From NCBI GenBank assembly GCA_016209155.1, contig JACQWU010000321.1, positions 1-8,524 on the forward strand: a stretch of 8,524 nt of DNA, written 5' to 3'. Below, in pieces: positions 5,421 through 7,771 of the stretch (within the stretch, counting starts at the first letter, position 1; each line of letters opens with the position of its first letter). The position numbers were made by a program, and so were the translations under genes. This DNA comes from Candidatus Desantisiibacteriota bacterium (GTDB lineage Bacteria; JACRDZ01). Below the pieces are notes generated by a model. It was not told the DNA's origin and made no database searches. It saw only the letters and a list, made by a program, of their open reading frames with translations.

Positions 5421-5960
5421 ATGAATAAATATGAAGATGAAGAAATTTTAGATATTATAAATAATAAAGGGGAAATAATAGGTTCTATGCCGCGTTTTAA
5501 AATACATGGAAATCCTGCTTTGATCCATAGAGTGGTACATGTGCTTGTATTCAACAAAAGCGGTGATTTATTTCTGCAAAAACGCTCAATGAATAAAGAT
5601 GTTGCCCCCGGGAAGTGGGATACTTCAGTTGGCGGACATGTAAATCATGGAGAGACAATACATAGTGCGATCGAGCGTGAGACCATGGAAGAACTTGGCA
5701 TAACTTTGCCGCAAACTAAATTTTTATATGAATATATTCACTCAAATTCTTTTGAAACAGAACTTGTCCATACATTTTTCTCCATATATGATGATGAGAT
5801 AATTTTCAATAGAAGTGAGATTGAAGAGGTACGTACATGGAGTATAAATGAAATAAAAGATGCTCTTGGAAAAGGAATTTTGAGTGATAATTTTGAACAT
5901 GAATTTAAAATGCTTTCCTCTGTGTTCGGATGTGCGACTAATCCAATAATGAACCTGTAG
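5421..5960 (+). CDS. Nudix hydrolase, isopentenyl-diphosphate isomerase-like subgroup
   Basis: A 179-residue Nudix protein. The complete Nudix box runs from G72 to I94: G72, five residues, E78, seven residues, R86-E87, then E90-E91, L92, G93 and I94. The metal-binding REXXEE glutamates are intact. The start EEILDIINNKGEIIGSMPR and the segment FLQKRSMNKDVAPGKWDTS resemble the YfcD/Idi-like group, whose members hydrolyse small nucleoside or isoprenoid diphosphates. The exact substrate is unknown, and the Idi-type active-site Cys and Glu cannot be assigned. The ATG at 5421 suits the family N-terminus but lacks a ribosome-binding site. The stop TAG (5958-5960) lies inside the repeat element at 5930-6050, and residues from about 171 (CATNPIMNL) are probably element-derived, so the native end may have been replaced. 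The gene is divergent from metF and convergent with the U32 gene, whose frame overlaps it antisense by 223 bp. Confidence 0.9.
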   Translation: MNKYEDEEILDIINNKGEIIGSMPRFKIHGNPALIHRVVHVLVFNKSGDLFLQKRSMNKDVAPGKWDTSVGGHVNHGETIHSAIERETMEELGITLPQTKFLYEYIHSNSFETELVHTFFSIYDDEIIFNRSEIEEVRTWSINEIKDALGKGILSDNFEHEFKMLSSVFGCATNPIMNL

Positions 5961-7771
5961 GGGTGCCCCTTGCGGGTACCATAAATAAATAATATTGCGT
6001 GCGGGCAGGTGCAAGACCTGCCCCTACACTTATAGATTTGCCGCACACATAAACCCAATTCCTGCCTGATACAATATTTTGATATCATAACCATTCTGCC
6101 GTTCATATCAAGCCCTGATTCCGCGGCAGGTTCTATAACACTTGCATTATGCCTTGCATAAAAATTTTCAGCTTTTTTATTAAGTACATTGCCAAGATAG
6201 TTAATTGTTTTAAGCGGATAAGGAATAGTGTTTTTTATGATTTCAGCGGTTTTTAGCGGAAAATTTTTATTTCGAAGCTCCATCAGGTTATTTATAACTC
6301 CGCGCCTTAAATTATTTAAAATTGAAACAGGAATAAAATACATTTTATCTAAATTGATATTAACTTTTTTGCAGGTAAAAATAGTTTCTCCCAGTTTTAA
6401 AAGTTGTTTTTCAATTGTTTCCAGGGTAAAAGATTTATTTTCCGCAATTTTTTTTTCGCAAAGAATAGAATAATCAGCTTTATTTTCATCCTCATCAAGG
6501 GCTTCCAGATTAAATCCGTCTGATCGCATATTGAAATTTAGAGATATGGAAATACGGCGGTGGCATGGTATTTTTTCAAGCTGTTTTATGAATAACCGGT
6601 CAAGATTTCTATATATAATAGTACCTTTTTCAATATAATTCATTTTATCGGGATAAATTAAATTATTTTGCACTTTATTTATTGTAGTACCTTTTAAATT
6701 TTTTGCTGAATCAAAAAAACAAATCCCATCACCATTTTCAAGTGCTCTACCGGAAGATATTATAAAAAAATTTTTATCAATACCTTTAACTGTTCCTATT
6801 TGTTCCCCGGTTGATTTAGGAGTATTAATTGAAGCAAGATCACCTTTTTTGCCGCATAAACCATAATCCGTGTAACTGCGGTTAAAAGTTTTATAAGGCT
6901 CCGGAGTGAAATTAAAGAAAGTTTTTCCGGATGAGCTTTTTAGCATTTTTTTATTTTCTAAAATTTTGTCCAGCTTCATACGATAGAAACCGATAATATT
7001 TACAACATATGCCAGGTCTTTCAGTCTTCCTTCGATTTTAAAAGATGTTATCCCCGCATCGATCAATTCATCCAGATATTCTGAACGATTAAGGTCATGC
7101 AGGGATAAGAGATACTTATTTTTAACAAGTATTTTTCCGCTTGTATCGCGAAGATGATATTTGCGCCGGCAGGGTTGTGCGCATCTGCCTCTGTTCCCGC
7201 TTCGTTTACCTATAGCATAGCTTAAATAACACCGGCCGCTTTCGCTTACACAAAGAGCCCCATGGACAAAACATTCAAGGTCAATTTTTGTTTTTGCTCT
7301 TATTTCTTTTATTTCTCTTAAAGTCAGCTCTCTCGGAAGTATCACACGCTGAAATCCGGTCTTTTCAAGAAACAGCACTTTTTCAATTGTATCCATATTC
7401 ATTTGTGTGCTGGCAAAAAGAGGTATAGGGGGAAGGTCAAGTTCAAGTAATCCAACATCTTGAATTATTAAAGCATCAACTCCGGCTTCATAGAGATTTT
7501 TAATAAGCAATAATGCCTGATTAAGCTCATCATCAAAAAGAATAGTATTTAAAGTCACATATACACGTGCATAAAATTTATGAGCATATGACACAAGCTT
7601 TGCAATATCATTGATACTATTCCCCGCGTTTTCCCGCGCTCCAAACTGCTCAGCGCTGATATAAACAGCATCAGCGCCGGAATTTATGGCAGCGATACCT
7701 GTTTCAGTGTTTTTTGCAGGAGCAAGGAGTTCAATTTTTTTTAAAATATTATTATTTGATAATATATCCAT
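5738..7771 (-). CDS. U32-family protein (RlhA/TrhP-like) with a replaced C-terminus
   Basis: The 677-codon frame starts at ATG 7771-7769. Residues 11-270 are a U32 catalytic domain: KKIELLAPAKN (11-21), GADAVYIS (33-40), and the U32 signature ECFVHGALCVSESGRCYLS (166-184), followed by GRCAQPC (195-201). Cysteines such as C174, C181, C197 and C201 are candidate iron-sulfur ligands. SLHDLNRSEYLDELIDAGIT (223-242) and SFKIEGRLK follow. Residues about 380-510 resemble the DUF3656 region of RlhA-type proteins. Characterised U32 proteins mostly act with iron-sulfur clusters in RNA or ubiquinone hydroxylation (RlhA, TrhP, UbiU/V); protease activity is doubtful. KYCIRQELGLC (565-575) is the start of the usual C-terminal segment, but from about residue 575 the frame is encoded by the repeat element, and from about 615 by the antisense of the Nudix gene. 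The normal tail, which in my recollection carries a second Cys motif, is missing. Activity may be lost or altered. The start lies eight nt after the upstream gene, with only a weak GGCGG site. Confidence 0.85.
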   Translation of the reverse strand: MDILSNNNILKKIELLAPAKNTETGIAAINSGADAVYISAEQFGARENAGNSINDIAKLVSYAHKFYARVYVTLNTILFDDELNQALLLIKNLYEAGVDALIIQDVGLLELDLPPIPLFASTQMNMDTIEKVLFLEKTGFQRVILPRELTLREIKEIRAKTKIDLECFVHGALCVSESGRCYLSYAIGKRSGNRGRCAQPCRRKYHLRDTSGKILVKNKYLLSLHDLNRSEYLDELIDAGITSFKIEGRLKDLAYVVNIIGFYRMKLDKILENKKMLKSSSGKTFFNFTPEPYKTFNRSYTDYGLCGKKGDLASINTPKSTGEQIGTVKGIDKNFFIISSGRALENGDGICFFDSAKNLKGTTINKVQNNLIYPDKMNYIEKGTIIYRNLDRLFIKQLEKIPCHRRISISLNFNMRSDGFNLEALDEDENKADYSILCEKKIAENKSFTLETIEKQLLKLGETIFTCKKVNINLDKMYFIPVSILNNLRRGVINNLMELRNKNFPLKTAEIIKNTIPYPLKTINYLGNVLNKKAENFYARHNASVIEPAAESGLDMNGRMVMISKYCIRQELGLCVRQIYKCRGRSCTCPHAILFIYGTRKGHPYRFIIGLVAHPNTEESILNSCSKLSLKIPFPRASFISFILHVRTSSISLLLKIISSSYMEKNVWTSSVSKEFE
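5962..5980. repeat. Hairpin of the left half-element
   Basis: GGTGCCC (5962-5968) pairs with GGGTACC (5974-5980) through seven pairs, one of them G-U, around loop CTTGC. It lies immediately after the Nudix stop codon. It has no T-tract, so it would be a poor intrinsic terminator but could block exonucleases. Confidence 0.7.
6003..6023. repeat. Hairpin of the right half-element
   Basis: GGGCAGGT (6003-6010) and ACCTGCCC (6016-6023) form a perfect eight-bp stem around loop GCAAG. The stem is nearly all G and C in otherwise AT-rich DNA. It lies inside the reading frame of the U32 protein on the minus strand. Confidence 0.85.

Follow-up and report, generated by a model that had tools for sequence, protein, structure and literature searches.

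REP dimers and RlhA-type U32 proteins

GTAG-tagged REP dimers (BIME/REPIN) were described by Di Nocera et al. in 2013 (PMC3733652). The same work describes REPs located between convergent 3' ends and TAG stop codons that are provided by the GTAG tag, and approximately 10% of intragenic REPs are found at coding ends (PMC3733652). Proteins that contain REP-encoded segments are known, and some of them (RPE-1 of R. conorii) are expressed (PMC3733652).

RlhA (YdcP) is a short-form U32-DUF3656 protein that hydroxylates C2501 of 23S rRNA. In E. coli RlhA, residues E161, C169, and C176 are needed for ho5C2501 (PMC6599085). In most U32 families, the cysteines of the CX6CX15CX3C motif have been proposed to ligate a [4Fe-4S] cluster (PMC6747719). 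Distinct from this known cysteine motif, short-form RlhA proteins possess a four-cysteine C-terminal tail (C557, C565, C588, and C591 in the protein encoded at L061:2998-4797) that is conserved from E. coli to the phylum studied here.

Here, we analyze a stretch of 8,524 nucleotides (the window) in which a REP dimer lies between a Nudix hydrolase gene and an RlhA-type U32 gene. The element is like the dimers of Di Nocera et al. in its GTAG tag, palindromic core, inversely oriented units, and many copies, and also in its position between convergent 3' ends, its use of the TAG of GTAG as a stop, and its REP-encoded gene ends. Unlike those dimers, the flanking U32 gene has also lost a conserved tail of 33-35 residues, and outer TGTGCGRC ends are possible in two copies. 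The U32 protein shares with RlhA both domains, the Fe-S type CX6CX15CX3C motif, and the C567/C575 pair, but is without the CxxC half of the four-cysteine tail and carries an element-derived extension instead. The case fits published REP biology neatly and is in itself unremarkable; an RlhA-like enzyme may be affected. It adds little to general knowledge, since REPs at the ends of genes are amply documented. What it illustrates well is how REP repeats edit gene ends: a stop is gained on one side, and on the other a conserved tail is lost, with read-through. It also highlights the four-cysteine tail conserved at the C-terminus of short-form RlhA proteins.

The repeat element

The window is the entire contig C273 of a MAG (3.08 Mb, 352 contigs, 79% complete). 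The U32 gene runs on the minus strand from 7771 and the Nudix gene on the plus strand from 5421, and the two are convergent. Their native parts are separated by a GC-rich inverted repeat at approximately 5931-6047 (Table 1), with a G+C content of 49% versus 33% across the window. In two relatives, G001 and G003, the neighbors of both genes differ from those found here, and no empty site from the same species was found.

GTAGGGG opens both arms of the element, and each arm contains a palindrome. In REP 1 (GTAGGGGCAGGTCTTGCACCTGCCC, read from 6027 to 6003), the GTAG tag precedes a palindrome within the 20-40 nt expected of a REP. The tags at 5957 (plus strand) and 6027 (minus strand) are in inverse orientation and are separated by 71 nt from tip to tip. 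GTAG cores matching GTAGGGGYNNNYYTTGCR occur 42 times in the MAG, where the reversed control pattern has 0 matches, and five other genomes hold 0-2 copies each. A BLAST search with the element returned 34 matches, the best near-full-length one being on contig C104 (79%). The folding of the element beats that of shuffled sequences (z of -4.2 as RNA and -3.2 as DNA). A scan for intrinsic-terminator patterns was negative at this position. A literature search on the motif GTAGGGGC found nothing relevant. The element at 5931-6047 is a GTAG-tagged REP dimer and is BIME/REPIN-like. Elsewhere in the MAG, 13 GTAG cores are found on the single 22-kb contig C186 (e.g., L020, L022, and L023), which forms a REP-dense stretch.

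The outer boundary of the element is drawn from the copy on C104. The 20 nt before GTAG are common to the C104 copy and the window copy (TGTGCGACAAATTTATTGGT vs TGTGCGGCAAATCTATAAGT), and the 16-nt head TGTGCGRCAAATYTAT is found exactly only at the window element and beside the C104 REP copy. Because this head recurs without mismatch only there, residues V576-K581 of the U32 frame are assigned to the element, whose start directly adjoins the C575 codon. Matches to TGTGCGRCAAATYTAT with 2 mismatches were not clearly above control; therefore, only the two exact copies were counted. Since TGTGCGAC is also present towards the Nudix gene, 8-bp inverted ends may bound the element as a whole, with the outer head/TIR seen in only two copies. 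No clear target duplication was found in the flanks of the element. The original prediction had seen a GC-rich repeat at this position, and that much stands; it did not recognize the repeat as a GTAG REP dimer, and it missed that the element starts directly at C575.

Table 1. Features of the Nudix/U32 junction in the window.
Feature	Position	Strand	Remarks
GTAG-tagged REP dimer	5931..6047	.	Possible outer 8-bp inverted ends TGTGCGAC / TGTGCGGC
REP 1 GTAGGGGCAGGTCTTGCACCTGCCC	6003..6027	-	U32 side; abundant form in this genome
REP 2 GTAGGGGTGCCCCTTGCGGGTACC	5957..5980	+	Nudix side; inverted partner; C104 carries the same form
Native Nudix hydrolase part, 170 codons to ...SSVFG	5421..5930	+	Profile and orthologue comparison
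Element-derived Nudix end CATNPIMNL and TAG stop from the GTAG tag	5931..5960	+	Comparison with element and orthologues
Native U32 body, 575 codons	6047..7771	-	RlhA-type U32-DUF3656; CX6CX15CX3C motif intact
Non-native U32 extension, residues 576-677 and stop	5738..6046	-	Some 39 codons of element followed by some 63 antisense to native Nudix

The U32 protein and its lost tail

The U32 protein scores 245 bits for Peptidase_U32 and 74 bits for DUF3656, and is the only DUF3656 protein found in the MAG. In an alignment with E. coli RlhA, it keeps the CX6CX15CX3C motif, the conserved Glu, and the equivalents of E161, C169, and C176. The 575 codons of the body have no frameshift or stop, and 2 residues depart from otherwise invariant family columns, compared to 0-14 in other members. 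The body thus appears to be without signs of decay. No solved structure matched the U32 protein by sequence, and viral contigs yielded no homologues in two further scans. An AlphaFold model of a relative's protein, made from an alignment of 4 sequences, has pLDDT <50 over residues 494-600.

The C-terminus was compared with those of 11 short-form U32-DUF3656 relatives, namely the orthologues in G001 and G003 and nine others. The G001 and G003 orthologues belong to the same phylum, have 64% identity, and terminate in ...KYCVKKDLDLCGKDPSDLYLIGEDGRKYLLKFICEKCQMEIFFPQV and ...KYCIKKEFDLCGKNKDDLFLIGEDGKKYLLKFDCEKCRMEIFYP. The tail pattern C-x7-C ... C-x2-C is present in 11/11 of these relatives and in E. 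coli RlhA. The window protein keeps the first cysteine pair of this tail (C567, C575) and the second pair is absent. Its homology to relatives ends exactly at C575, the codon that abuts the element, and orthologues extend 33-35 residues beyond this break, so the last 33-35 residues, including the conserved CxxC, have been lost. The family tail was found neither in the window nor on the other assembled contigs of this 79% complete genome. Orthologues that end at residues 575-580 or that share the tail of the window protein were sought, and neither kind was found. With the Fe-S/catalytic motif kept but the CxxC half of this tail gone, the protein is likely to be hypomorphic or in an early stage of decay. 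The gene is therefore best read as RlhA-like, probably truncated not long ago and possibly hypomorphic, with a predicted loss of function.

Beyond C575, the U32 frame continues on the minus strand through the repeat and into sequence antisense to Nudix. The full frame from 7771 has 677 codons, stops at 5738-5740, and overlaps the Nudix ORF by 223 bp. Residues C582, C587, and C589 are REP-encoded in this frame, and their spacing is unlike that of the lost CxxC. The longest stop-free antisense runs in genes of the window are 72-106 codons, with at least one such frame per gene, and the equivalent antisense frame in the Nudix genes of relatives has three stops; the extension therefore needs no special cause. 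The open antisense frame looks like no more than chance and is unconserved, and the extension is most likely unselected.

Most of what had been claimed for the U32 gene from the window alone holds in these comparisons. The ORF confirms the open frame, the stop at 5738, and the 223-bp overlap; the alignment with RlhA/DUF3656 members bears out a normal protein up to C575; the absence of the expected tail extends from the window to the other contigs; and replacement of the C-terminus by the repeat, which adds three cysteines, is supported. Two proposals fared less well. Fusion to antisense Nudix sequence as a meaningful protein tail is unsupported, and a decayed U32 gene is not shown by the data, given the intact 575-residue body.

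The Nudix gene end

Orthologues of the Nudix protein have 170-171 residues and terminate in FEHEIGMYLKKIKKI and FEDEFGRYLSFRSGKS, each directly before the stop. The window protein ends with FEHEFKMLSSVFG followed by CATNPIMNL and the stop: 170 residues are native, and the last 9 codons and the TAG lie in the element. Because the native 170 residues are followed by CATNPIMNL and the TAG of GTAG, the Nudix end is element-derived. By comparison with the orthologues, little or no native Nudix sequence appears to have been lost. An altered U32 end had been correctly read from this locus, while the change at the Nudix end was missed.

Similar events elsewhere in the genome

On contig C18 (L029:690-1541), the last 11 residues (VGAGLATARIL) of a TIM-barrel (AP_endonuc_2) protein are encoded by a single REP. 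At the same locus in two relatives, the downstream GFO/IDH/MocA gene is conserved and the REP is absent. Since this REP-derived end lies at a locus of conserved synteny, ends of this kind are, as a class, real in this genome and no product of faulty assembly. TAG stops are supplied by the GTAG tag at C20, C172, and C186, and several other REP copies adjoin stop codons. No orthologues of the C20 and C172 genes with GTAG stops were found in G001-G003. Genes whose TAG stop is the TAG of a GTAG tag can be seen at L014, L006, and L023.

Origin of the junction

We consider it likely that a REP dimer between the convergent 3' ends of the Nudix and RlhA-type U32 genes removed the U32 tail and supplied the Nudix end. 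We infer the following order of events at the junction. A dimer of GTAG-tagged REPs, a type of repeat whose spread is attributed to REP-associated tyrosine transposases (RAYT/TnpA-REP), would have come to lie where the two genes converge. Either this insertion itself or a subsequent recombination or deletion event at the hairpins would have removed the last 33-35 U32 codons and the DNA between the genes; Nudix would have lost a few codons at most. The Nudix frame now meets a new TAG stop within the GTAG tag. The U32 frame reads the tag as TGT AGG, out of frame, and translation would continue passively until the stop at 5738, which lies there by chance.

The same arrangement would result if the contig were misassembled, with a REP-bearing U32 gene and a REP-bearing Nudix gene joined at the repeat and the true U32 tail on an unassembled or unbinned contig. 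The junction does hold a repeat, the window makes up an entire contig in a MAG that is fragmented and incomplete, and synteny with relatives is absent on either side. However, the window copy and the other REP copies compared have at most 30 identical nt in common, and an identity of 30 nt is too short to collapse at the usual final k-mer lengths of assemblers. Together with a tail that is found on no other contig of the assembled genome, this short shared stretch argues against a false join. The same relatives, G001 and G003, also give the best matches for both U32 and Nudix, and the second REP-derived gene end, on C18, is at a conserved-synteny locus. A misassembly is therefore regarded as unlikely.

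The state of the U32 gene bears on two further readings. It is very unlikely that the gene was dead beforehand and that the element merely inserted into a pseudogene: the conserved CxxC is lost, and with DUF3656 present in only 35/290 genomes searched, the gene is often missing from genomes of this kind and can therefore be lost, but the 575 codons are free of frameshifts and stops, the CX6CX15CX3C motif is intact, and only 2 residues depart from family-invariant columns, against 0-14 in other members. The intact body, an open frame with three cysteines shortly after C567 and C575, and the precedent of REP-encoded protein segments, some in expressed proteins (PMC3733652), would also suit a REP-encoded tail (CRGRSCTC; C582, C587, and C589) that is translated and rebuilds the lost C-terminal metal site in a new spacing. 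If true, an enzyme that modifies rRNA would have recruited a selfish repeat as a functional tail. We give this almost no credence, as the C-x4-C-x-C spacing is not that of the conserved C-x2-C-x-M, the final ~63 codons run antisense to a coding gene in a frame that is closed in relatives, and comparable antisense runs are common.

For the favored origin, in which the REP dimer altered both gene ends, we infer mobilization of the dimer by a RAYT. The MAG encodes six Y1_Tnp/RAYT-like genes, two of which exceed the NCBIfam RAYT cut-off. No GTAGGGG copies were found beside the RAYT genes examined in this 79% complete MAG. On contig C89 (L145:1133-2233), an N6/Eco57I-type methylase gene contains an in-frame RAYT (Y1_Tnp; NF047646, 88 bits, above the cut-off). 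This RAYT is flanked by repeats that encode GQAFLPV and RYQTGMSDLP, so that the methylase gene harbors a REP-transposase cassette within its coding sequence.
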